Source of the DNA: Desulfonatronum sp.
GTDB taxonomy: Bacteria > Desulfobacterota > Desulfovibrionia > Desulfovibrionales > Desulfonatronaceae
NCBI GenBank assembly: GCA_011049455.1
Contig: DSBL01000047.1
Coordinates: 1 to 48,149 of the forward strand
Length of the DNA stretch: 48,149 nt
Direction: 5' to 3'
Part shown: piece by piece, positions 10,146 to 45,140 of the stretch
How the letters are laid out: every line of letters starts with the position of its first letter
Position numbering within the stretch: the stretch's first letter is position 1
Translations under genes and position numbers: made by a program
Notes under the pieces: generated by a model
Database searches by the model: none
Seen by the model: only the letters and a program-made list of their open reading frames with translations
What the model was told of the DNA's origin: nothing

Positions 10146-13100
10146 TCAGCCGCATTTGGTGTAGCCGCATCCCTGGCAGATAAAGCATCCTTCCTGGAAG
10201 ATTAATTCTTGGCCGCAGTCCGGACATTCCGGCGAGGCCAGCGCTTGATCCATTTCCGCCTTGCGTCCCTGCATATAGCGGCTTTCCAGGATCCAGGCCA
10301 AGGCGTCCGGAATGGACAACAGCATGTCTTTTTTCTGAAAAACAGGATGCTCGCCGCCGATGCCCTTGAGTTGACTGACAACGTCAGCCACGTCCACGCC
10401 GGAGCGCAGGGCCAAGGACACCAGACGGCCGATGGCCTCGGCCTTGGCCGTGATGGACCGGCCGGATTTGCCGATGGTGGCGAACACCTCAAAGGGCTTC
10501 CCGTCCACCTCGTTCACCGTGAGATAGAGAAAACCGTATCCGGTTTTGACTTTCTGGGTGAAGCCGTAAACTACGTCCGGACGCTCCTTGACCTTTCTCT
10601 GCGTCTTTGCCGGGTCCTTGCTCTTGTCTCCATCGCCGGTGCACAACACCTGGCTGCTTTTGCAGCCGTCCCGGTACACGGTTACACCTTTGCAGCCCAG
10701 TTCGTAGGCCACCCAATAGATGTTCCAGATATCCTCCTTCGTGGCCTCATGAGGCAGGTTCACGGTCTTGGAAACCGCATTGTCCGTGAATTTTTGAAAG
10801 GAGGCCTGCATTTTCAAGTGCCAGACCGGTTCAATGTCGTGGGCCGTGACATAAACCCTGCGGATATCCTCTGGCAGGTAATCCAGATGACTGATACTGC
10901 CTTTGGCCGCCACTTCTTCCATCAGCTTCGGACTGTGGCATTGGGCATTTAGCAGGGCCTTTTCAAACCAAGGGTTGGCCTCCAAAAGACGTTCCCCGTC
11001 CATGACCTGGCGCACGAAACTCAGGGCAAAGAGCGGCTCAATTCCTGAAGAGCAGCCGGCCAGAATGGACAGGGTCCCGGTTGGGGCGATGGTCGTGGTG
11101 GTGGCGTTGCGGAACGGGCCCTGATTGTGCTCGGCATAGGTCGACTCGGAAAAGGCCGGAAAAGGACCGCGCTCTTCAGCCAGCACCTTGGAAGCGCTGC
11201 GGGCCTCGTGCTGAATGAAGTCCATGATTTTTTCGGCCAGGTTCAAGGCCTCCTGGCTGTTATAGGGGATTTGCAGGCGAAAGAGCATGTCGGCCCAGCC
11301 CATCACGCCCAGTCCGATCTTGCGGTTTTTGCGCACGGCCTTGGTAATGATTTCCAAGGGGTAGCGGGAGGCGTCAATGACGTTGTCCAAAAAGCGCACG
11401 CACAAGTGGATGTCCTGCTTGAGGTCGTCCCAGAGGATTTCCACAGGCTCATTGTCGCTGAGGTATCGGGACAGGTTAAGGGAGCCGAGATTACAGGCTT
11501 CGTAGGGAAGTAGCGGCTGTTCCCCGCAGTTGTGGGCCATGAAACCGTTGGCGTCAAAGACGTGGATCCCGGGGACAGTGACATCGTAAACTTCCTGCTC
11601 GCCGACGGGCACCACGGAATCCACAGTGGCCAGAAAGCGCTCCCGATTCAGGGTCCGTCGATATGCACGCAACAATGTTGCCAAAAGAGATTGCTTGCTG
11701 GTGTCTTTGAACCCGATGACATCGGCAAACCTTTCCAGGTTCCCGCCGGATACAACCAGTTCGTGTTGGGCCTGGACAGGATAGAGTCTGACGCCGCCCT
11801 TGCCGTCTGGCAATGCCTTCTGACCGGCTGGCCGTCTGTTTTGATAAATGGTGCTGGCAATGCCCAGACGCAGGAGCATGCGCTGGACGACAAAAAGGCG
11901 GGTCAGGTCGCTCTGGGAGAGCCGGACACTGACGCCTTTGCGTTGACTGCCCTGAACAGAACCATCGGCATCGAACAAGCCTCCCAAAAACCCTTGATAA
12001 AAGCTCGAGGAAGTCTGTTCCAGCTTTTCAGTAAGGTTTTTCGAACCCGGAGACATTCCCAATTCAAATGCAATGTCCCGAACAGCACTCAGGCTCATCC
12101 GGAATTCGCCGCGATCTGGCAAATGTTGCCAACCTTGAAAGTCGGGGCGATGCGGCAGGGCCATGGCATGAGTTTTTGCGGCTTCCATGATCCCCTCAAC
12201 GCCGCACTCGTCATCACCGTTGACCTCGGCTGAGGCGGGCCAGACGGAGAGTACCGCCTTGTCTGCCTTCAAGGTGCCGTCCCCCACCAGCAAGCCGAGC
12301 AGATATCCTTCTGTTTGCCCATATGCACCTGGCCACCCGGCCAAGGTCCGGTGATCATTGAGAAGGATTTTATCTCCCGGGGCCAGATCCCTGGCTTGAG
12401 TCCATTGTGTGTTCAGCGAATATCGTGAAGGTGATGCGGCCCGGAGCAACGGATGGTCTGCTGTGAGCTTCAGGCTGTGCCCCTCTTTGGTCCGCAGAAG
12501 GAATACCGGTTTTTTGCCCGTGGAGAAAAAACCCCGCCCCGTACTAGGATGGGTCTGACCGTTGACAATCAGGTTCGTGGCTTGCCCCAGCAGGTTGCAA
12601 ACCTGGCGGGGCCCGGCATCCGTCATCACGAACGCGTCGCCGGTGACGCAAGGATTGGTGCTTTCGATTTCTCCCTGCTTGGGCGTGGGGTTGTCCCGGT
12701 TGGTCCGGTCCAGGAAGATGATTCCCGGATCTCCGCTTTCCCAGGCCTTTTGCACCAGCAGGGAAAAAACCTCGCGGGCCTTCATGCGTGCCTTGACCTG
12801 GCCGGTGTGCGGAGCAACGAGAGGATATTCTTCATCCTTTTCCACGGCCTGCATGAAGGCTTCGGTAAGACCCACGGAAAGGTTGAAGTTGTTCAGGTCG
12901 CCATCGCGTTCCTTGGCCCGGATGAAATCGATGATGTCCGGATGGTCCACCCGCAAAATGCCCATGTTCGCACCGCGTCTGGTGCCGCCCTGTTTGACCT
13001 GTTCCGTGGCGGTGTTGAAGATGCGCAAAAAAGAAATCGGACCGGAAGCGATTCCTCCGGTAGAGCCGACACGGCTTTTTTGTGGTCGCAGGCGGGAAAA

Positions 13101-13499
13101 GGAAAATCCTGTGCCGCCGCCGGATTTGTGAATCAACGCCGCGTACTTGATGGCGTCGAAGATTTCCTCCATGGAGTCACCTACGGGCAGCACGAAACAG
13201 GCTGCGAGTTGGCCCAATTCAGTGCCGGCGTTCATCAGCGTCGGGGAGTTGGGCAGAAACCGATAGGTGGTGATCAGCTCGTAGAATGCCCGGGATAGGT
13301 CGTCCACGGAGAAGGAGGACTTGTCGTATTTGGCTTCCTCGGCCGCGATGGCCGAGGCCACGCGCCAATACATTTGCCGAGGGGTTTCCAGCAGTTCGCC
13401 CTGGCCTCCTTTGCGCAGGTAGCGTTTTTTCAGAACAACTTCGGCATTGGGAGGGAGGACCGGCTCGGGCAGGTTCTTGGGCATTTCGGGCAAGGTCAC
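10146..13499 (-). CDS. nrdJ: B12-dependent (class II) ribonucleotide reductase containing an intein
   Basis: Reduces ribonucleotides to deoxyribonucleotides with adenosylcobalamin. Excluding the intein, the mature chain is 743 residues, normal for NrdJ. Extein motifs include LAACFVLPVGDSMEEIFDAI, HKSGGGTGFSFSRLRP, GGTRRGANMGIL and the active-site NPC/GEQPLLPYEACNLGSLN, interrupted by the intein. The C-terminus has a TSCPD domain and a zinc ribbon (CPDC and CQGCGYTKC). The start at GTG 13499 is preferred because GAGGAG lies six bases upstream. An ATG at 13610 would add 37 Ser/Thr-rich residues but has no ribosome site. A cobO gene in the same window fits the cofactor need. Confidence 0.93.
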   Translation of the reverse strand: MTLPEMPKNLPEPVLPPNAEVVLKKRYLRKGGQGELLETPRQMYWRVASAIAAEEAKYDKSSFSVDDLSRAFYELITTYRFLPNSPTLMNAGTELGQLAACFVLPVGDSMEEIFDAIKYAALIHKSGGGTGFSFSRLRPQKSRVGSTGGIASGPISFLRIFNTATEQVKQGGTRRGANMGILRVDHPDIIDFIRAKERDGDLNNFNLSVGLTEAFMQAVEKDEEYPLVAPHTGQVKARMKAREVFSLLVQKAWESGDPGIIFLDRTNRDNPTPKQGEIESTNPCVTGDAFVMTDAGPRQVCNLLGQATNLIVNGQTHPSTGRGFFSTGKKPVFLLRTKEGHSLKLTADHPLLRAASPSRYSLNTQWTQARDLAPGDKILLNDHRTLAGWPGAYGQTEGYLLGLLVGDGTLKADKAVLSVWPASAEVNGDDECGVEGIMEAAKTHAMALPHRPDFQGWQHLPDRGEFRMSLSAVRDIAFELGMSPGSKNLTEKLEQTSSSFYQGFLGGLFDADGSVQGSQRKGVSVRLSQSDLTRLFVVQRMLLRLGIASTIYQNRRPAGQKALPDGKGGVRLYPVQAQHELVVSGGNLERFADVIGFKDTSKQSLLATLLRAYRRTLNRERFLATVDSVVPVGEQEVYDVTVPGIHVFDANGFMAHNCGEQPLLPYEACNLGSLNLSRYLSDNEPVEILWDDLKQDIHLCVRFLDNVIDASRYPLEIITKAVRKNRKIGLGVMGWADMLFRLQIPYNSQEALNLAEKIMDFIQHEARSASKVLAEERGPFPAFSESTYAEHNQGPFRNATTTTIAPTGTLSILAGCSSGIEPLFALSFVRQVMDGERLLEANPWFEKALLNAQCHSPKLMEEVAAKGSISHLDYLPEDIRRVYVTAHDIEPVWHLKMQASFQKFTDNAVSKTVNLPHEATKEDIWNIYWVAYELGCKGVTVYRDGCKSSQVLCTGDGDKSKDPAKTQRKVKERPDVVYGFTQKVKTGYGFLYLTVNEVDGKPFEVFATIGKSGRSITAKAEAIGRLVSLALRSGVDVADVVSQLKGIGGEHPVFQKKDMLLSIPDALAWILESRYMQGRKAEMDQALASPECPDCGQELIFQEGCFICQGCGYTKCG
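11529..12650 (-). mobile_element. 374-residue intein with LAGLIDADG endonuclease inside NrdJ
   Basis: The insert begins at Cys (TGC at 12648-12650) in CVTGDAFVMTDAG and ends with GFMAHN at 11529, followed by Cys+1 of the host chain. Block A is present, block B is LKLTADHPLL (the TxxH motif), and block G ends in HN with C+1. The two endonuclease motifs are YLLGLLVGDGTL and FLGGLFDADGS, each with an acidic residue at the expected site, so the homing endonuclease looks intact. All splicing residues (Cys1, block B His, penultimate His, terminal Asn, Cys+1) are there, so splicing should be active. Removal restores the uninterrupted NPCGEQPL of NrdJ. Confidence 0.95.
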
Positions 13500-13633
13500 G
13501 AATGGCTCCTCAAGGGTGGTTGGTTGCGTTTGCAGGATGAACGATGAAAAAACAGATGACTCCACGGAGAACAAGGAAATCCCTGCCTCGTTCTCCGTGG
13601 TCGAATTCATGATGGCTGTTGTGGTTGTCCTGG

Positions 13634-33950: not shown

Positions 33951-36900
33951 ATGCCAAACGACAAACCTTCGCGAAAAGAAAGCGATCTTCAGTATCCCGG
34001 TCATGCTGAGTGTCTTGACCTCCTGACGGACGCCCCGATCGGGATGTTCACAACCACCCTTGAAGGCAGGTTCCTGTTTGTCAATGCGGTATTGGCGAAG
34101 TGGCTGGGCTATGCATCATTCCGTGAACTCAAGGATTTGATCACGGATATTGGCGGACAACTCTACGCCGACCCCGAGGAAAGAAAGCGCATCAAGCAGC
34201 TACTGGTGGAAAATGGCGAGGTGTTGAACCATGAATTTCGGGCGCTTTGCCGAAACGGCGAAGTTATCTGGGCATGCATGAACGCCCGCATGTTTTCTGA
34301 TCAAAACGGAAAAGCCTGTATTCATGGTTTTGTCACGGATGTCACCGGCCGCAAGCGGATCGAGGAGGCCCTGCGGTCCAGCGAAGAGTGCTACCGGCTT
34401 CTTTCGGACGTGACCATGGAGGGCATCGCCATTCATCGCCACGGCCTGCTCAAGGATTTGAACACGTCCCTGGCGAAAATGCTCGGCTACGCGCGCGAGG
34501 AATTGCTCGGCAAGAACATTGTGGAACTGGCCATTCATGAAGACGATCGAAAGATTGTGTTGGCAAATATCGGCAAAGATTATGCCCGCCCGTACGTCAT
34601 CAGGGGCGTGAAGAAGAACGGAGAGATTTTTTTCGCCGAACTTGAGGCCCGTAACTTCACAATGCAGGGTGAAATGCTGCGGGTGGCGGCGGTGCGGGAC
34701 ATTACCGAACGCATGCGGTTCAAGGAGGATTTGCGGGAAAGTGAGGAATTTCTCAACAGTATCATTGAGAACATCCCGAATATGATTTTTGTCAAGGACG
34801 CGCAAACTCTCGAGTTCGTCAGGTTCAACAAGGCGGGTGAGGATTTGGTGGGCAGCAACCGGAAGGATTTGCTCGGCAAGAACGATTATGACTTTTTTCC
34901 GAGGGAACAAGCGGACAGTTATGTTGAAAAAGACAGGGAGGCCTTGGCTAACGGACGACTGGTCGATATTCCCGAAGAGCGGATCCAGACACGTTGCCGG
35001 GGCGAACGCATCCTGCACACCAAGAAAATTCCGATCATGGGGAGGGACAAAAAAACCAAGTATCTTCTGGGGATCTCGGAAGACATTACCGAGAGCAGGC
35101 TGGCGGAAGCTGCGCTGCGGACCAGCGAGGAGAAATATCGCGAGCTTTTTGAAAACGTGCCAGTGGGCATTTTTCAGACAACAGCCAGAGGCCGCTACCT
35201 GTCGATCAACCCGGAATACGCACGCATCGTCGGGTACGCGAGTCCGTCGGCAATGATGAACCAGGTTACGGATATCGCCGCCCAGCTCTATGTCCGACCC
35301 GAGGATCGGGAACGCTACAAGAATCATCTGCAAGAGCATGGACATGTCAGGAATTACGAGGCGGAGTTGAAGCGCCGCAATGGTCAATCATTCTGGGTGT
35401 CCATGAACACCATTGTCCATCATGATCCTGACGGCGAAGTCGTCTACAGCGGATTTCTGACGGACATCACCGAACGCAAACGGGCGGAACAGGAGGACCT
35501 GCTCAACTATCAGCGCACCCAGGCGCTGCTGCGGCTCGGGCAGATGACCCGGGCAACGCTCAAGGAGATCACGAACTTTGCGCTGGAACAGGCCGTTACA
35601 CTGACCAGGAGCAAGATCGGCTACCTGGCGTTTCTCAACGAGGATGAAAGCGTTATGACCGTACACTCCTGGTCGGAATCGGCCATGAGGGCGTGCAAGA
35701 TTGCTGACAAGCCGATCCTCTATCCTGTCGCGGCGACCGGGCTTTGGGGTGAGGCTCTCCGGCAGCGCAGACCCGTCATCACCAATGACTACCATGCGGC
35801 GAGTCCCTGGAAAAAGGGGTATCCCGAGGACCATATCCAGGTTTTTCGGCATATGAATGTCCCTGTTTTCAGCGACAATAGAATCGTGATTGTCGCGGGC
35901 GTCGGCAACAAGGAAGGGGAGTACGCTGAAAGCGATGTTCAGCAGATAACCCTGATCATGCAGGCCATGTGGGTCTTGATCAAGCGGAAGCAAGACGAGG
36001 AGGCCGTCAGGCTCAACGAGTCCCGCCTGGAAAGTCTGCTGCGCATCAGCCAGCACCCATCAGAAAACATTCCCAATCTGCTCGACTTCGCCCTGAACGA
36101 GGCCGTTGCCCTGACCGGCAGTGAGATCGGATACATTTTCCTCTACGACGAGGACAGGATGGAGCTGACCCTGAACACCTGGTCCAGAGAGGTCAAAAAA
36201 CGGTGTGCGGCAAAGGGCCCCCAGAGCGTCTTTTCATTGCGGGATACGGGGCTTTGGGGGGAAGCCATCCGCCAGAAAAGACCGATCATGATCAACGACT
36301 TCAACGCTCCCGGTCTTCGCAAAAAGGGGCTGCCCCCGGGGCATCCGCCGCTGCATACATACCTGACCATCCCCATTGTCAGCCAGGGCCGCATCATGGC
36401 CGTGGTGGGCGTGGCCAACAAGCCGGATGCCTACAACGAGTCGGACATACGCCAGCTGACCTTGATGATGGACGCGGTGTGGATGATCGTTCAGCGCAAA
36501 AAGGCCGACGAGGAACGGGAACGGCTCCAGATGCAGCTGCTGCAAGCCCAGAAGATGGAGTCCATCGGCACGTTGGCCGGGGGAGTGGCCCACGACTTCA
36601 ACAACCTGCTGCAGGCCATGAGCGGCAATGTTCAACTTCTGCTTGCAAACAAGCAGCAGGACCATCCGGACGTACGTCGCCTGCATACCATAGCCAAATC
36701 CATTGACCGTTCAGCCCGTCTTGTCCAGCAGCTGCTGATTTTCAGCCGCAAAGCCGAGGTGCAGCGGCAAAGAGTGGACTTGAACCACGAAGTGCGGGAG
36801 ACTGCCAGAATTCTTGAACGGACCATTCCCAGAATGGTCAGGATCGAGCTGCGTCTTGACGAGCAGCTGTGGCCGGTCCATGCCGACCCGGCCCAGATCG

Positions 36901-37712
36901 AGCTGGTATTGCTGAACCTGGGAAGCAACGCTGCCCACGCCATGCCGGACGGGGGCCGTCTGGTGGTCGAGACCCGCAACGTGATCCTGGACGAGGGTTT
37001 TGTCCGGAGGCACTCGTGGTCGAGGCCGGGCGGGCATGTGCTTTTGTCCGTCACGGACACGGGCTGCGGCATGGACAAAAGCACCCTGGAGCATATTTTC
37101 GACCCCTTTTTCACCACCAAGGAGGTGGGGCTGGGCACGGGCCTGGGGCTGGCGTCGGTCTACGGCATCGTCAGGTCCCACGACGGGCTCATTCTCTGCT
37201 CCAGCGAACCGGGTCAAGGCACGACATTCAAGATCTATTTGCCCGCCGCGCCAAAGCCGGAGGGAACCGTCGATGCCGCGGCTCATGAGGGCAAATCCGC
37301 TCATGTGGGATCTGGGACCATTCTTGTGGTGGACGACGAGGAGGTCATCCGGGACGTGACCCGGGAGGCCCTGGAGGGGTCGGGCTACGCCGTGATAGGC
37401 GCGGCCAGCGGCGAAGAGGCCCTGGTTGTGTACGCCGGGAAGGGACAAACCGTGGACATGGTCATTCTGGACCTGAACATGCCCGGCATGGGCGGCCGCC
37501 GGTGTCTCGAGCAATTGCTGGAAATCAACCCCGAAATCCGGGTGCTCATTGTCAGCGGATATTCGTCCGCCGGACAGGCGCGGGAGATTTCCCATGGCGC
37601 GGCGGGGTTCCTGGGTAAACCGTATCAGCTGGCCGAGCTGCTGAGCAAGGTGCGCGGGGTACTGGAGGGCGCAAAACCTCCTGACGGCGCTTCACCTTCC
37701 GCAACAATCTGA
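33951..37712 (+). CDS. Hybrid sensor histidine kinase (4 PAS, 2 GAF, HisKA, HATPase, receiver)
   Basis: 1253 residues with no membrane segment. PAS domains at about 20-138, 145-260, 265-385 and 393-512. GAF/GAF-2-like domains follow at about 535-680 and 705-850; each holds a TGLWGEA-(I/L)RQ(R/K)RP(V/I) motif, showing internal duplication. The HisKA phospho-acceptor is H881 ([11 protein letters not shown]). The ATPase region has N and G boxes ([29 protein letters not shown]), about 985-1100. A receiver ends the protein with D1174. It is a soluble multi-input sensor. No output regulator gene is adjacent apart from the truncated receiver gene before it. Confidence 0.93.
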
Positions 37713-37861: not shown

Positions 37862-39004
37862 ATGAATCATCTTGATTTTGCTTCGTTGAAGCTGTTCATT
37901 ACAGGGCCCACGTTCATCCGCGACCAGGTGAAACAGGCGGCCCTGCTGCCCGAGTTCGGACACCGCGATACGGAGAACGCGAAGCGCTTCGGGCCGATCA
38001 TGGCCAATCTCAAGGCCCTGGCCGGCCTGCCCGTGGACACCGACTACCAGGTGGTCATCTACAACGGCTCGGGGTCCACGGCCATGGAGTCGTCCATTCG
38101 CTCCCTGGCGGCCGACAACGATCTGGTGCTCAACGTATCCGTGGGCGCCTTCGGCGATCTTTACCACAAGATGGCCGTGGTTAACGGCAAGCAGGCCAGG
38201 CAGCTCAGCTTCGAGCCCGGGCGGGCCGTGGACCTGGACCTGCTGGAAAAGACCATGAGGCAGGCCAACCCACAGGTGGTGACCATTACCCACAACGAGA
38301 CCTCCACGGGCGTGACCAACGACATCGCGGCAGCCTGCAGGCTGATCCGCGCCCACAACGCCCTGCCCCTGGTGGACGGGGTGTCCATCTTCGGCGGCGC
38401 GCCCAGCCTGATCAGCGAGTCCCGGCCGGCCATGTATTGCACCTCAACCCAGAAGTCCCTGGGCCTGCCCGCGGGCTTCGGAATCGCCTTTGTCGGCCCG
38501 GACGCCGTGGCCAAGGCGGAAAAGGTGAAGTTTCGCGGTCACTCCTCGGACATTCTGGCCCAGCTCGGGCGGTCCGCCAAGACCCAGACATTAACCACCC
38601 CCAACTGCACCTTGGCCAACCAGATGCGTGTGCAGCTTGATCACATCGTGCATGGCGAGGGCGTCCAGAACCGCTTTGACCGCCACCTGAAGATGCGCGA
38701 CATGGTCCACGCCTGGGTGGAGACCCTGGACGGATTCGAGCTTTTCGCCCAGGCGGGCCGTCGCTCGCCCACACTGACCGCGGTGCGCTGCCCGGGCGGC
38801 ATGTCCGTACAAGATTTGAAGGCGCTGAAGGAAGCCATGCGGGCCCAGGGGTATTTGTTCGATCCCGGCTACGGCAAACTTAATGACGCGCTGGCGGCCC
38901 AGGGCAAGGCCGTCCTGTTCCGCATCGGGCACATGGGCGACATCACGCCGGATATGCTCGAGGAATACCTGGACATTTTGAAACATGCACTGCAAGCGAG
39001 GTAA
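37862..39004 (+). CDS. Class V PLP aminotransferase, probable phosphoserine aminotransferase
   Basis: 380 residues. Belongs to the alanine-glyoxylate/serine-pyruvate branch of class V. Motifs: FITGPTFIRD at the start, YNGSGSTAMESSIRS (PLP phosphate), THNETSTGVTND, LVDGVSIFGGAP and the PLP-binding Lys in TSTQKSLGLPAG (about residue 201). It is followed four bases later by serA, so it probably makes phosphoserine from phosphohydroxypyruvate, as class-V enzymes substitute for SerC in some anaerobes. A stand-alone Ser-pyruvate or Ala-glyoxylate activity is the alternative. Confidence 0.85.
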   Translation: MNHLDFASLKLFITGPTFIRDQVKQAALLPEFGHRDTENAKRFGPIMANLKALAGLPVDTDYQVVIYNGSGSTAMESSIRSLAADNDLVLNVSVGAFGDLYHKMAVVNGKQARQLSFEPGRAVDLDLLEKTMRQANPQVVTITHNETSTGVTNDIAAACRLIRAHNALPLVDGVSIFGGAPSLISESRPAMYCTSTQKSLGLPAGFGIAFVGPDAVAKAEKVKFRGHSSDILAQLGRSAKTQTLTTPNCTLANQMRVQLDHIVHGEGVQNRFDRHLKMRDMVHAWVETLDGFELFAQAGRRSPTLTAVRCPGGMSVQDLKALKEAMRAQGYLFDPGYGKLNDALAAQGKAVLFRIGHMGDITPDMLEEYLDILKHALQAR

Positions 39005-39007
39005 CCC

Positions 39008-40192
39008 ATGAAGATACTGGCCAATGACGGCTTGGCGGACGAGGCTCTCTATTACTTGAAGCAGGAGGGGTTCGCCGTGGACACCCTCAAGCGCGACCCC
39101 GACCAGCTGGTCAAAGATATCCCCGGATTTGACGCGCTCATCGTACGCAGCGCCACCAAGGTCACGCGGGAGGTGATCGAGGCCGGTGCCGGCAATGGCG
39201 CGAAGTTAAAGATCGTTGGCCGCGGCGGCGTGGGCACGGACAACATTGACAAGGAGGCGGCCAAGGAATTCGGCGTGATCGTCAAGTTCGCGCCCCAGGG
39301 CAACACCAATGCCGCAGCCGAGCACGCCCTGGGTCTGATGTTCGCCATTGCCCGCCGCGTGCCCTTTGCCCACTGCTCGCTGAAGGCCGGCGTCTGGTAC
39401 AAGAAGGCCTTCATAGGCTGCGAGCTGATGGGCAAGACCCTGGGCATCATCGGCTGCGGCCGCATCGGTCAAGCCCTGGCCGCCAAGGCCAAGGGCCTGG
39501 GCATGCGCGTGATCGGCGTGGACGTCTTTCATGCCATTGATTCCCAGGCCGAGTACGTGGACACCAAGCAGGAACTGCTGGAGCATTCCGACTTTGTCAG
39601 TCTGCACACCGGCGGTACGGACGTGATCATCGGCGAGGCCGAGCTGGCCCTGATGAAGTCCACGGCCTTCCTGATCAACGCCTCGCGCGGCATGAACGTC
39701 TCCGAGGAAGCCCTGTACAAGGCCTTGAAGGAAAACCGCATCGCTGGGGCGGCCATGGACTGCTTCGAGGTGGAGCCCAAGAGGGAGGGCGAGCCCTTCC
39801 TGAGCAGGCTGCGCGAGCTGGACAACATCGTGTTCAGTGCGCACCTGGGGGCCAGCACCCGCAACGCGGTGCTTCGCACCAGCCTGGAGATCGCCGAGGT
39901 CGTGGCCAACTATCTGCGCCGGGGGGATTTCCAGAGCTCGGTGAATGTGGGCGAGACCGTGGAGGAGGAGGGCAGGCGCATCTACACGCTGTTCATCACC
40001 CATGAGGACAAGCCCGGCATGTTCGGCAAAATCGCCACGACATTGGGCAATTTGGGCGTCAACATCCGGGAGAACAATTCGCGCCAACTGAAGGACCTGG
40101 TCCAGACCGTGTACACCATCCACCAGGCCCCCACGGACGAGGTGGTGACCGCGCTCAAGGCCATCCAGGGCATCAGGCGGGTCGTGTATTAG
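39008..40192 (+). CDS. serA: D-3-phosphoglycerate dehydrogenase
   Basis: 394 residues. Oxidises 3-phosphoglycerate, the first step of serine synthesis. The NAD site is TLGIIGCGRIGQALA (about residues 142-156). Substrate and catalytic signatures are GRGGVGTDNID, PQGNTNAAAEH and, near the His, VFSAHLGAST. A C-terminal ACT domain (about 320-392, LFITHEDKPGMFGKIA) makes it a short-type SerA, probably serine-sensitive. GAGG of its ribosome site overlaps the end of the preceding gene. Convergent with gatB across about 100 bases that carry no clear terminator. Confidence 0.94.
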   Translation: MKILANDGLADEALYYLKQEGFAVDTLKRDPDQLVKDIPGFDALIVRSATKVTREVIEAGAGNGAKLKIVGRGGVGTDNIDKEAAKEFGVIVKFAPQGNTNAAAEHALGLMFAIARRVPFAHCSLKAGVWYKKAFIGCELMGKTLGIIGCGRIGQALAAKAKGLGMRVIGVDVFHAIDSQAEYVDTKQELLEHSDFVSLHTGGTDVIIGEAELALMKSTAFLINASRGMNVSEEALYKALKENRIAGAAMDCFEVEPKREGEPFLSRLRELDNIVFSAHLGASTRNAVLRTSLEIAEVVANYLRRGDFQSSVNVGETVEEEGRRIYTLFITHEDKPGMFGKIATTLGNLGVNIRENNSRQLKDLVQTVYTIHQAPTDEVVTALKAIQGIRRVVY

Positions 40193-40289: not shown

Positions 40290-41735
40290 TTACTGGCCGT
40301 CACCCTTGAGTTTGCTCGTCATCAGTTCCTTGAGCAGGCGCGGATTGGCCTTGCCCCCCGAGGCCTGCATGGCCCGCCCCATGAGAAAGCCTAGGGCCTT
40401 GGAAGCCCCCTGTCGGAAATTCTCCACCGCGGAGGCGTTTTCCAAAATCACGCGGTCCACCAGTGCTTCCAGCTCGTCCGCCTCTGAAACCTGCCGACAG
40501 CCGCATTGGACCACGATTTCCGCAGGCGACGCCGTGCTTTCACAAAGCTTGCGCAAAACCTCCCGTGCTGCATTGGCATTGATTTCTTCCCGCTCCAGCA
40601 TGAGCAAAAGGCCGGCGAAGCGCTGGGGGTCCAGGGGAGTGTTTTCCAGGGTTTCCTCCCTGTCCTTGAGCAGGGGGGGCAATTGGGCGGCGATCCACTG
40701 GGCCGCGAGTCTGGGGGGCGCCTGATGGTCCAGGGCTGACTCGAAATAGCAAGAGACGTTTCGCTCCGCGCTCATCTGCAGGGCCTCCTCCCGGGTCAGC
40801 CCGTGGCGGTTCATGTAGCGCTCCGCCTTGAGGCCCGGCATCTCCGGCATATTCCGGATCATCTCCCGCAGCCACTTTTCCGATATGACAATGGGCGGAA
40901 CGGAAGGATCGGGCACGCAGGGGCCTTCGAATTTTTCCCGCATGGGGGAAGTGATGCGGGCCTCGGGGTCCCAGAGCCGCGTATGGGTGACGATGGGCTC
41001 CTTGCTCATCGCCAGGCTTTCCTGCCGGCGAATTTCATGGGCAACGGCATCGCCCACGTGGCGGATGGAGTTCATGTTCTTGATCTCCACCTTGGCGTTG
41101 AGAACGTTGCTGCCGGAGGGCCGTACGGAAACATTGGCGTCCACGCGCATGGTTCCCTGTTCCATGCTGCAGGTGGAGCACTGGGAATAACGCAGTTGCA
41201 TCCTGAGGGTCCGCAGGAACTCCATGGCGTCGGCCGGAGTACGCAGATCCGGTTCGGTGACGATCTCCACCAGGGGAGTGCCGGCACGGTTGAAGTCCAC
41301 CAGGCTGACGGTCGTTTTTCCTTCCTTCTCGTGCACCAGCCGGGCCACGTCCTCCTCCATGTGAATTTTCTGGATGCGGATCCTTTGCAAGGTTTCGTCT
41401 TCTTGGACAATGTCCAGCCAGCCGTTTCTGGCCAGCGGCCGGTGGAATTGAGAGAGCTGGTACCCTTTGGGCAGGTCGGGGTAATAGTAGACCTTCTGGT
41501 CGAAAGCGCTTTCTTTTTGGATCCGGCAGTTCAGCGCCAGGCAGGCCAGGGTGGCTTTTTCCAGGGCTTCTGCGCTGAAGCGGGGCAGATTGCCGGGCAG
41601 CCACAGGCAGATGGGGCAGGTGTTCCGATTGGGCTCGTCCCCGGGCCTGTTGGGGCACGAGCAGAACATCTTGGTCGCGCAACTGAGCTGGACATGAATT
41701 TCCAGTCCGATGACCGCCTGCAGTGTTGGCATCAT
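40290..41735 (-). CDS. gatB: Asp/Glu-tRNA amidotransferase subunit B
   Basis: 481 residues. GatB phosphorylates the misacylated Asp- or Glu-tRNA and amidates it with ammonia. Kept features are IGLEIHVQL with the metal ligands E12 and H14, the Cys4 zinc site (FCSCP and CPICL), KVYYYPDLPKGYQLSQF, HMEEDVARL, LVDFNRAGTPLVEIV and the C-terminal YqeY-type domain. Altered: the usual DYRYFPEPD stretch reads GPCVPDPSV and is about four residues shorter. The ATG overlaps the stop of the gatA-like gene (ATGA), so the two are coupled. It probably works with the fused GatC at the other end of the operon. Confidence 0.9.
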   Translation of the reverse strand: MMPTLQAVIGLEIHVQLSCATKMFCSCPNRPGDEPNRNTCPICLWLPGNLPRFSAEALEKATLACLALNCRIQKESAFDQKVYYYPDLPKGYQLSQFHRPLARNGWLDIVQEDETLQRIRIQKIHMEEDVARLVHEKEGKTTVSLVDFNRAGTPLVEIVTEPDLRTPADAMEFLRTLRMQLRYSQCSTCSMEQGTMRVDANVSVRPSGSNVLNAKVEIKNMNSIRHVGDAVAHEIRRQESLAMSKEPIVTHTRLWDPEARITSPMREKFEGPCVPDPSVPPIVISEKWLREMIRNMPEMPGLKAERYMNRHGLTREEALQMSAERNVSCYFESALDHQAPPRLAAQWIAAQLPPLLKDREETLENTPLDPQRFAGLLLMLEREEINANAAREVLRKLCESTASPAEIVVQCGCRQVSEADELEALVDRVILENASAVENFRQGASKALGFLMGRAMQASGGKANPRLLKELMTSKLKGDGQ

Positions 41736-42931
41736 GGCGCACCCTGCGTCAGGGTCGTCAGTCTTTGCGCCAGGGCCAGCATCCCCTGGTCGGTCCCCCA
41801 GGACCCCACGAGCTGCAGTCCCAGGTCCCGGCCGTCGCATCGAACCATGCCCGGGAGAGCAATGGCGGGCAACCCGGCGACACTGGCCGGCAAAGTCAGG
41901 GAAAAAGCCCTGTACAGTTCTTCGATGTCCCGGGGCGATGCCGGCTCCCGTTTTGCATGCAGGGCGGGGAGCACCAACACGTCCAGATTCTCCAGGAGTT
42001 TTGCCAATCCCTGGACCAGCCGCGTTCGAATCCGGCAGGCCTGTTCAAAGGCTGCGTAGTCCTCAAACTGAAAATACGCGCCCTGAAAAAGAAAGGCTTT
42101 CATCAGCGGCCCGAAAGACTCGCGCCGGGTTTGCAAATACATCTCATTCCAGTTTTTGCCTCCGGAGGCCCGGTGCCCGAAGCGCACGCCGTCGAATTTT
42201 CCGCAGCTGGAAGACGCCTCCACGGCGGCAATCACCTGGTGGACCGCTGCAAAGAGACTCAGGTCCTTGTACTGGGCTTCCCGGATGGTCAGGCCTGCCT
42301 GCTCCAGCCTGGAAACCGCTTGTGAAAACGCGCTGCGTTCCTGCGGTTCGAGTAGATCCTGCAGTTCCTTGAAGACCCCGGCCCTTGTGAGGGCCGGGCT
42401 TGTTCCCGTGGGTTTGTCAGCCGCCATGGAGGGATCGCGCTCGTCAATATGCGCGACGGTCTCCAGCATCCGGGCAATGTCATCCAGGTTGGAAGCGAGC
42501 ATGCCGCAGCATTCCATGGAAGGAGCCAGGCCCATCAGCCCGAACCGGGACACCCGTCCCCAGCTGGGCTTGAACCCGAACAGACCGGCTTTGACCGCCG
42601 CGACCCGCGCCTCCCCAAGGGTGTCCATCATCAGGGCCGCGTGCACAAGGCCTTGGGACACCGCCTTTGCGGCGCCGTCCCCGGCGATCCCCAGGCCCAG
42701 CTCGCTGGAGCGGGTGCTCCCGGCCAGCACGGCCCCCTCTGTTTTGAGCCGCTGGATCACGGTGGCGTCCTCCAGGGGGTGAAAGCCCTCAAGGGCTTTG
42801 GAACCGCCTGTACATGGCCACCCGCGCACGCAGAACAGGGACTGTACCCCGACCCGTTTTCCGAAAAGGCGACCGTGATTTTCAGCGGCACAGGTGGCCT
42901 GGTTTACATGGGCAAAGATTTCCGAATGCAT
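41732..42931 (-). CDS. GatA homologue lacking the amidase catalytic triad
   Basis: 399 residues versus about 485 for GatA. Homology is clear: SKALEGFHPLEDATVIQRLK, FGFKPSWGRVSRFGLM, EASSSCGKFDGVRFG and SVAGLPAIALPG. By alignment the catalytic Lys is Q30, the cis-Ser is G84, and the nucleophile Ser of DTGGS is E107 (DTLGE). About 18 residues before the Ser-rich loop and about 45 N-terminal residues are gone. Residues that bind glutamine in known GatA (Tyr, Arg, Asp) also appear changed. No frameshift restores the motif. It keeps an open frame and coupling to gatB, so it is likely a structural pseudo-enzyme. Start 42931 has AAAGGA upstream. Confidence 0.82.
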   Translation of the reverse strand: MHSEIFAHVNQATCAAENHGRLFGKRVGVQSLFCVRGWPCTGGSKALEGFHPLEDATVIQRLKTEGAVLAGSTRSSELGLGIAGDGAAKAVSQGLVHAALMMDTLGEARVAAVKAGLFGFKPSWGRVSRFGLMGLAPSMECCGMLASNLDDIARMLETVAHIDERDPSMAADKPTGTSPALTRAGVFKELQDLLEPQERSAFSQAVSRLEQAGLTIREAQYKDLSLFAAVHQVIAAVEASSSCGKFDGVRFGHRASGGKNWNEMYLQTRRESFGPLMKAFLFQGAYFQFEDYAAFEQACRIRTRLVQGLAKLLENLDVLVLPALHAKREPASPRDIEELYRAFSLTLPASVAGLPAIALPGMVRCDGRDLGLQLVGSWGTDQGMLALAQRLTTLTQGAP

Positions 42932-43018
42932 ATGGTGTTCCTTTGGGATCTGACCGAGCCTCCAGCCGGGGCGTGACGCCTTGCCTGTTTCCGATCGCGA
43001 TCCGACCATGGCTTTACG

Positions 43019-43315
43019 TCACTGTTCCAGAACGCCGGCCACCCTGAAAAATTCCCCCTTGACGGACGGGGCGTTCTGAAAAATCTCCCCGGTTTGGGCA
43101 AAGGGACTGATCCGGGCCGGCGTCTGTTCGCGCAGGGGAGGGGCCGTCTTCACGGGCGTGAGCATGGGTTCTTCCGTCCCGGCCGCTTGTTGCATCACGT
43201 CCGCCAATCGGGCGGCTTCTTGCAAGGCCTTGTTCACGGCGGGCCGTTCTTGCTCGTCCAGGCCGATCCGCGCCTTCCACGAGAGGGAATCCACGAGTTC
43301 CTGCCGCCTTTCCAT
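43019..43315 (-). other. gatC: GatC domain at the end of the AspRS fusion
   Basis: 98 residues from an internal Met (43315) to the stop, the full size of a GatC. It reads [18 protein letters not shown] and ends [20 protein letters not shown]...VLEQ, typical of GatC C-termini. There is no stop between AspRS and this Met and no good ribosome site (GGAG is 17 bases away), so it should be made as a fusion, though internal initiation is not excluded. GatC normally anchors GatA to GatB. Confidence 0.8.
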
Positions 43316-45140
43316 GCCAGGAACGGGCTTGGCTCCGGCCAGGTCCACAAGCCCCAGCTCTGCCAATTGGTCCTGGGAAACCTCGGCAGGGGCCTGCGTC
43401 AGAGGGCAGAAGGCGCTGCGGTTCTTGGGAAAGGCCGTGACATCCCGGATGGAGGCGGTTCCCAGGATCATGGAAACCACCCGGTCCAGGCCCAGGGCCA
43501 GGCCTCCGTGGGGGGGGCGCGCCGTACTCCAGGGCCTGGAGGAAAAAACCGAATTTTTCCCGGATGTCGGCTTCAGAGAGCCCAAGGACGCGGAAGATCT
43601 TCAGCTGCAGCTCCTTGTCGCTGATGCGGATGCTGCCGCCTCCCAGTTCCTCGCCGTTGACCACCAGGTCGTAGGCCCGGGAAAGCAGCCTGAGCAGCCC
43701 TGCGTGGTCATGGGGGTCGAAGTCCGCCCGGTTTGGGGCGGTGAAGGGGTGATGGCTGGAGGTGACGCCCCCTTCCGCGGCCTCGAAAAGGGGAAAATCC
43801 GTGATCCATACTGGACAAAAGACGTCCAAAGGGATCAACCCCAGCCTGTGGCCCAGGTGCAGGCGCAGCTGACCCAGGGCAGAGACCACGGTTTCGTAGG
43901 AAGGATCGGCGATCATCAGGATCACGTCCTCGCTTTGCGCCTTGAAGCGTTGCAGAACAGCACGTTTTTCCTCATCGCTGAAAAACTGGACAATGTTGGA
44001 ATCCAGACCTTTGTCCGAGACGCGCATCCAGGTCATGCCCTTGGCCCCGAAGGAGGGCACGATTTCCTTGGCGTATTCGTTCTGCAGGATGTTCTTGCTC
44101 AGTTTGTCCGACTGCCCGCGCACGTTGACGCCCTTGATGCACCCGCCCCGCTTAATGATCTGCCGGAAGATGCCGTACTTGGTGTTCTGAAAGATGTCCG
44201 TGGCGTCAACGAACTTGAGCGTGAAGCGCAGGTCCGGGCGGTCCGTACCGTAGCCGTCCATGGCTTCGTGGTATGTCATCAAGGGAAAGGGCCGCGGCAG
44301 GCTGATGCCCGCCGCCTGAAACATGCCGCAGACCAGTTCTTCCGTGAGCTCGCGGATGGCCTGCTCGTTCATGAAAGATGCCTCGATGTCCAGCTGGGTG
44401 AATTCGGGCTGCCGGTTGGGCCGCAGGTCCTCGTCCCGGAAGCAGCGCACCACCTGGAAGTAGCGCTCAAAGCCCGCCACCATGAGCAGCTGTTTGAACA
44501 ATTGCGGAGACTGGGGCAGGGCGTAGAATTTTCCGGCATGGTGGCGGCTGGGCACGAGGTAGTCCCGGGCTCCCTCCGGGGTGCTCTTGGTGAGCATGGG
44601 GGTTTCCACTTCAATGAAGCCCTGTTCGTCCAGAAAGTCCCGGGCGCTCTTGATGATCCGGTAGCGCTTGACCAGGTTGTCCTGCATGGTGGGGCGGCGC
44701 AGATCCAGGTAGCGATACTGGAGCCTGAGATCCTCGGCCACGGCATCGGTGCGCTTCACGCCCCCTTCGGCCAGCATGGCCTTTTCAGACACCGGAAAAG
44801 GGAGGGTTGCGGCTTGGCTGAGAATAGTCAGGTCCTGGGACGTGACCTCCACGGTGCCCGTATCTATGTGCGGGTTTTCCGTGCCCTGGGCCCTCTGGGT
44901 CACGATTCCTTCCACCTGGATGCAGAACTCGTTTTTCAGCGAGCGGGAACGATCGCACGCCAGAGGGGGAGAGACCTCGGGGCTGAACACCACCTGGACG
45001 ACGCCGGTGCGGTCCCTCAGGTGGATGAACAGCACGTCCCCATGATCCCGCAGGGCGTCCACCCAGCCCGCGAGACAAACCTTCTGCCCGACGTGCTCCA
45101 ACCGTAAGCTGCCGCAAGAAGAGCGGCCAGTGGTCAACAT
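43019..45140 (-). CDS. aspS: AspRS-GatC fusion with one frameshift
   Basis: Frame-corrected length is 706 residues: AspRS 1-608 and GatC 609-706. AspRS charges tRNA with aspartate. Visible parts are the OB fold, motif 2 region [20 protein letters not shown], the GAD insertion, and motif 3 [13 protein letters not shown]33 and G86 align with residues linked to non-discriminating AspRS (His31/Gly82 of Pseudomonas), which also charges tRNA-Asn. A run of eight C (43510-43517 on the plus strand as G) just before motif 3 puts the downstream part out of frame; seven C would restore [14 protein letters not shown]. Start ATG 45140. The uncorrected frame runs open to 43014. Confidence 0.85.

Follow-up and report, generated by a model that had tools for sequence, protein, structure and literature searches.

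A GatA homologue encoded in the window, by which we mean the whole 48,149-nucleotide stretch of Desulfonatronum sp. DNA under analysis, has on the evidence of alignment wholly lost the catalytic residues of the glutaminase. This protein (GatA') belongs to a three-gene cassette with the order AspRS-GatC fusion, gatA', gatB' (Table 1), and in our estimation the chances are evenly balanced that the cassette specifies a glutaminase-free Asn-type transamidosome using free ammonium. To judge from these sequences, many sulfate-reducing and syntrophic bacteria have an extra copy of the Asn-tRNA complex that retains the parts for charging and activation but has lost its glutaminase, in the same way throughout; its nitrogen must then come from elsewhere, or its product be another one.

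Table 1. Cassette genes and altered sites, in window coordinates
Feature	Position	Strand	Remarks
gatB'	40290..41735	-	ATP/Mg residues intact; D79, Q80, V82, V130, A131, H251, F269, 3-residue deletion before P272, C273
gatA' (GatA homologue lacking Lys, cis-Ser loop and nucleophile Ser)	41732..42931	-	399 aa; Q30, E107, H231, F280, F343
gatA' codons 102-108, MDTLGEA, opposite canonical TDTGGSI	42608..42628	-	E107 (42613-42611) in place of nucleophile Ser; alignment
gatA' codons 25-34, aligned with canonical catalytic-Lys strand (IKD -> VQS)	42830..42859	-	Q30 at 42844-42842; alignment
aspS-gatC' fusion (PRK12820-like)	43019..45140	-	split by frameshift in window; family keeps class II and Asp-site motifs intact
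C8 tract	43510..43517	-	one C too many for the AspRS-GatC frame; relatives L055 and L057 in frame

The GatA fold and the lost glutaminase residues

The reading frame, strand and coordinates originally predicted for gatA' were correct: a longer reading of the same ORF exists (41732-43009, minus strand, 425 aa), but the start at 42931 (MHSEIF...) agrees better than the one at 43009 with where the relatives begin. The best NCBIfam model for GatA' was TIGR00132 (GatA), with a score of 245.3 bits that lies below the equivalog cut-off of 481 and an E-value of 1.1e-72, as compared to 3.2e-75 for the best of the 17 genome members in alignment A1. An AlphaFold2 model calculated from an 80-row alignment reached a mean pLDDT of 93.6, and its top matches among solved structures, as found by Foldseek, were the GatA chains of GatCAB and GatFAB. 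VIA-align comparison of the model with GatA chains gave Z scores of 44-48 (44.5-45.8 for PDB 4wj3, 3kfu and 2df4, with rmsd 2.2-2.3 over 393-395 aligned residues). GatA' is a GatA homologue by fold and sequence, and the alignment with canonical GatA shows which residues it has lost.

This alignment confirmed the predicted replacement of the catalytic Lys by Q30 and of the nucleophile Ser by E107. The cis-Ser had been assigned to G84, which is wrong: a stretch of 22 residues containing the whole PGGSSGG loop is deleted and not mutated, in all 97 rows of the family alignment described below, and the E77-D103 span measures 27 residues in GatA' vs 49 in the canonical GatA of the same genome. The suspected change of the glutamine-binding residues was borne out, the Arg (second R of RRIMLG) being F280 and the Asp (MYxxD) F343, with neither of the two retained in any family row. 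From the alignment and the S. aureus numbering, we take these two columns to be those of R334 and D418 in yeast GatA. Glutamine-binding roles have been stated for both yeast residues (PMC4027206).

Distribution and conservation of GatA'

A search of 395 genomes of the phylum yielded 16 further relatives (43-55% identity, each aligned over most of its length), which together with the window's own genome make 17 carriers, or ~4% of the sample. Scanning of GTDB species contigs by tblastn with alignment A1 returned 413 relatives, the best 80 of which were inspected. The 17 genome rows and 80 contig rows were combined in a 97-row alignment, in which 13 contig rows duplicate genome rows, leaving ~80 distinct loci. 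Membership in these 97 rows is mostly within Thermodesulfobacteriota, and the isolates Desulfobulbus alkaliphilus, Desulfocicer vacuolatum and Desulfosarcina alkanivorans carry the cassette among the best 80 of 413, which makes it directly testable. The cassette was also observed at L097, L098, L114, L119, L121, L126, L131 and L133, the contigs of which bear the labels Omnitrophota, Dehalococcoidia, Spirochaetota, Acidobacteria, Verrucomicrobia, Gaiellales and Pirellulaceae; these occurrences reflect either transfer or misbinning.

Like the loop deletion, the replacement of the nucleophile Ser by Glu was found in 97/97 rows, and the catalytic-Lys position was occupied by Q in 82, E in 7, H in 4, R in 3 and W in 1, never by Lys. 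The dN/dS of gatA' ranged between 0.14 and 0.29 (Nei-Gojobori, 26 closest pairs listed, including some duplicates), indicating purifying selection, and since the loop deletion and the Ser to Glu change are common to all rows under such selection, the alterations of GatA' are more than chance. The frames are open over essentially their full length in about 80 loci, with a stop just ahead of the match end in 3 rows that merely shortens the C terminus; the intact frame noted originally is supported. That gatA' would be a dying duplicate, or an artefact of the MAG, is highly improbable. Damage does exist in its partners, as the AspRS-GatC frame of the window is shifted near the C terminus at the C8 tract, by either sequencing error or recent damage, AspRS is split in G437, and gatB' of G304 carries two stops. 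However, decay is contradicted for the family by the recurrence of the same changes in ~80 loci with open gatA' frames and low dN/dS, and in the window GatA' and GatB' are intact and the contig composition fits the genome. We therefore reject a pseudogene for the family; its sequence record shows that GatA' is more than an isolated case of gene decay.

In the 80-row alignment, 34 of 399 positions are invariant, including E107 and H231; both of these are invariant in 97/97 rows as well, H231 standing where canonical GatA has Tyr. Further new invariants of the family are A46, L135, W261, N262, Q283 and Q288. Two invariant new residues at former pocket sites (E107 and H231) answer to no obvious need in a bare scaffold, and this invariance is suggestive of a working pocket, albeit not proof.

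Seven genomes of the same genus gave matches of just 31-34% identity, a level also given by canonical GatA, and the nearest cassettes, among the best 80 of 413, belong to Syntrophobacteraceae and Desulfobulbus. The cassette was therefore likely gained horizontally in this genome. The cassette has a GC content of 62.0% (57.7% in 400 kb of other contigs) and a tetranucleotide distance at the 90th percentile. Elsewhere in the window we observed a gene for the large subunit of ribonucleotide reductase, interrupted in frame by a LAGLIDADG intein (10146-13610, minus strand; Pfam Intein_splicing and LAGLIDADG_3 within the barrel domain), a hybrid sensor kinase of 1253 aa with PAS, GAF and receiver domains (33951-37712, plus strand) and, convergent with the cassette, an aminotransferase and phosphoglycerate dehydrogenase-like gene pair (37862-40192, plus strand).

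Cassette partners, host genomes and possible function

Clustering of the neighbours of gatA' at 80 loci recovered GatB' in 76 and the AspRS-GatC fusion in 71; the next cluster comprised 8, and no other neighbour gene recurred above that number. No recurrent tRNA neighbour was found, 9 tRNAs being present in the 1.2 Mb surrounding the cassettes. The predicted coupling of gatA' to gatB is apparent in the window, where the gatB' start lies inside the gatA' stop (ATGA overlap, 41735-41732), and in the relatives, where gatB' comes directly next, beginning at or just past the gatA' stop. Canonical forms of GatA (over the TIGR00132 cut-off) and of GatB are encoded in 17/17 carrier genomes, which would allow canonical GatA or another amidotransferase to dock and to feed ammonia via GatA' or directly to GatB'. 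Such a borrowed donor is nevertheless unlikely, as GatA' fills both the GatA fold and the GatA gene position and no candidate donor gene recurs nearby at the 80 loci.

GatB' scored over the cut-offs of the curated GatB models (553 bits for NF004012, cut-off 338; 472 bits for TIGR00133, cut-off 314.8). Its ATP and Mg2+ residues E12, H14, E127, E128, E157, N201 and S203, the roles of which are taken from PMC4027206, are kept in 74/74 rows, as is T/S at position 160. Many positions fixed in 17 canonical GatB differ in GatB', which among others has D79, Q80, V82, V130, A131, H251, F269 and P272 and lacks three residues; in 73-74/74 rows R80 is changed to Q, N82 to V, AG after MEED to VA and the E before TRLWD to H, and the DYRYF segment is lost. 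Upstream, the C-terminal piece of the fusion matched PRK12820 / NF009460 (bifunctional AspRS-GatC) best among the NCBIfam models, the GatC part reaching 25.8 bits with TIGR00135 (below the cut-off of 47.1) and 24 bits with Pfam GatC (gathering threshold 23). The class II and Asp-site motifs of AspRS are conserved in 65/65 family rows save one F/M and one I/M change. Position 30 is His in the same 65/65 rows; as a marker of non-discriminating AspRS this residue is unreliable in the lineage, for it is Leu in G275, a genome with one AspRS and no AsnRS match over the cut-off. In the 100% complete genome G322 (C35, L142), which yielded neither a GlnRS match nor an AsnRS over the cut-off, the cassette AspRS is the sole AspRS found, so this domain is probably functional.

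Five sampled genomes (G262, G304, G343, G379 and G239) have an active GatA directly behind an AspRS-GatC fusion, the AspRS of G304 being cut by the contig end; loci of such covalently tethered transamidosomes, with fusion, active GatA and GatB, are G262:C79 (L138), G343:C21 (L175), G379:C1 (L176) and G239:C12 (L177). At the sites where the cassette GatB' is altered, the GatB of these operons keeps the canonical residues (5/5 rows). In a midpoint-rooted AspRS tree, the AspRS of active fusions and of glutaminase-less cassettes together separated from canonical AspRS (100/100), and each of the three formed a single group. This grouping and the canonical GatB of the active fusions suggest as the simplest history a single fused transamidosome, in one lineage of which the glutaminase would have been lost and GatB altered as well. 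The cassette probably derives from such a fused AspRS-GatC, active GatA and GatB operon, still extant in sister copies, a direction that we infer from the sequences.

Apart from the cassette, the Desulfonatronum genome (G000) has genes for canonical AspRS (C91), AsnRS (C63), GlnRS (C34), AsnB (C30), GatA (C35) and GatB (C24); the second catalytic gatA, for which a search had been proposed, lies at C35:9403-10806 and scores 598.6 bits, over the TIGR00132 cut-off. With these canonical genes at hand, the genome has no evident need for another route to Asn-tRNA. Replacement of AsnRS by the cassette is too simple an explanation for the carriers, 6/17 of which keep an AsnRS over the cut-off (11/17 are without), and asparagine synthetase of the AsnB type, detected in 12/17 carriers, showed no clear link. 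No tRNA-Asn or tRNA-Asp of this genome was found in the window and 400 kb of other contigs. A tRNA-Asn with a U1-A72 pair, which is a requirement for the two-step route (PMC4206432), is present at one carrier locus.

In the glutaminase-free transamidosome that we favor, the AspRS part, with its motifs intact, would charge tRNA with aspartate, the target presumably being tRNA-Asn. GatC', covalently bound to AspRS, would hold GatA' and GatB', as homology and gene order suggest, and GatB', which keeps its ATP/Mg residues, would phosphorylate the aspartate side chain with ATP. GatA' would serve as a structural subunit with a preserved GatA fold, the loss of its residues predicting no glutamine hydrolysis via Ser-cisSer-Lys. 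The nitrogen would most likely come from free ammonium, assumed to be plentiful in anoxic habitats, and the product would be Asn-tRNA. This is consistent with a glutaminase apparatus missing throughout a family that keeps the GatA fold under purifying selection and beside the same two partners, with the conserved GatB' and AspRS motifs and the sole AspRS of G322, with the sister fusions carrying active GatA and canonical GatB, and with the U1-A72 tRNA-Asn. Against the use of ammonium stand the broken AspRS-GatC frame in this genome, its lack of an evident need for a further route to Asn-tRNA, the invariant GatB' changes near active-site motifs, which a plain switch of donor need not require, and the invariance of E107 and H231 at positions that could drift in a dead site.

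These last observations would be accommodated if the pocket has been repurposed, GatA' binding or activating another substrate and the complex adding a different nucleophile to phosphorylated aspartate on tRNA, to give a modified aspartyl-tRNA or a free amino acid. We regard this as possible, albeit clearly less probable than the use of ammonium. It agrees with the invariance of E107, at the old nucleophile site, and of H231, with the further new invariants, with the restriction of the GatB' alterations to the dead cassette as opposed to the active-fusion operons, and with the lack of any evident need for another Asn-tRNA route; on the other hand, no conserved biosynthetic neighbour that could supply a substrate was seen at the 80 loci, and the old Lys site is variable. 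Slightly more doubtful again is the specific proposal that GatA' and GatB' co-evolved to a new chemistry, in which a pocket rebuilt around E107/H231 would supply a nucleophile other than glutamine-derived ammonia, yielding a previously unknown tRNA-linked aspartate derivative. Alternatively, the cassette could bind, edit or sequester Asp-tRNA, or regulate the canonical complex, without any Asn being made. The missing glutaminase and the complete canonical routes in this genome, which render the cassette redundant, fit such a role, but it is improbable considering that the GatB' ATP/Mg residues and the AspRS catalytic motifs are conserved as in working enzymes.

Relation to known systems

GatCAB is commonly regarded as glutamine-driven. 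A selected, widespread and AspRS-tethered GatCAB without glutaminase would, if true, mean that tRNA-dependent amidation is possible without glutamine, or that a scaffold has been turned to new chemistry. In the literature on GatCAB and GatA, as represented mostly by titles and the openings of abstracts, we recognized no description of a glutaminase-dead GatA, and nothing for PRK12820.

The cassette resembles GatCAB and the Asn-transamidosome (PDB 4wj3, 3kfu, 2df4) in the fold of GatA', in a GatB' that passes the family models and in comprising homologues of AspRS, GatC, GatA and GatB. It differs from them by the missing glutaminase residues, by the fusion of AspRS with GatC and by changes of GatB' at positions where the canonical GatB compared are invariant. 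The PRK12820 / NF009460 model matches the fusion but is silent on its GatA partner, which is active in the sister fusions and not in the cassette. In Deinococcus, Thermus and Bdellovibrio, Asn is made by way of non-discriminating AspRS and GatCAB (PMC4206432), and there, as here, AspRS and an amidotransferase are retained alongside AsnRS and GlnRS; in those bacteria, however, canonical GatCAB serves, whereas the cassette lacks a glutaminase and AsnB is present in this genome. Among the structure matches, the biuret hydrolase complex, a 'vestigial protein complex' (PDB 6c62), illustrates a GatA-family protein in a new role, but it is itself an active hydrolase, and we know of no AspRS or GatB partner for it. 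A precedent for the ammonium-using transamidosome is mammalian carbamoyl phosphate synthetase 1, which runs on free ammonia but still carries a dead glutaminase domain, although its proteins and substrate are unrelated and the likeness is one of analogy only.
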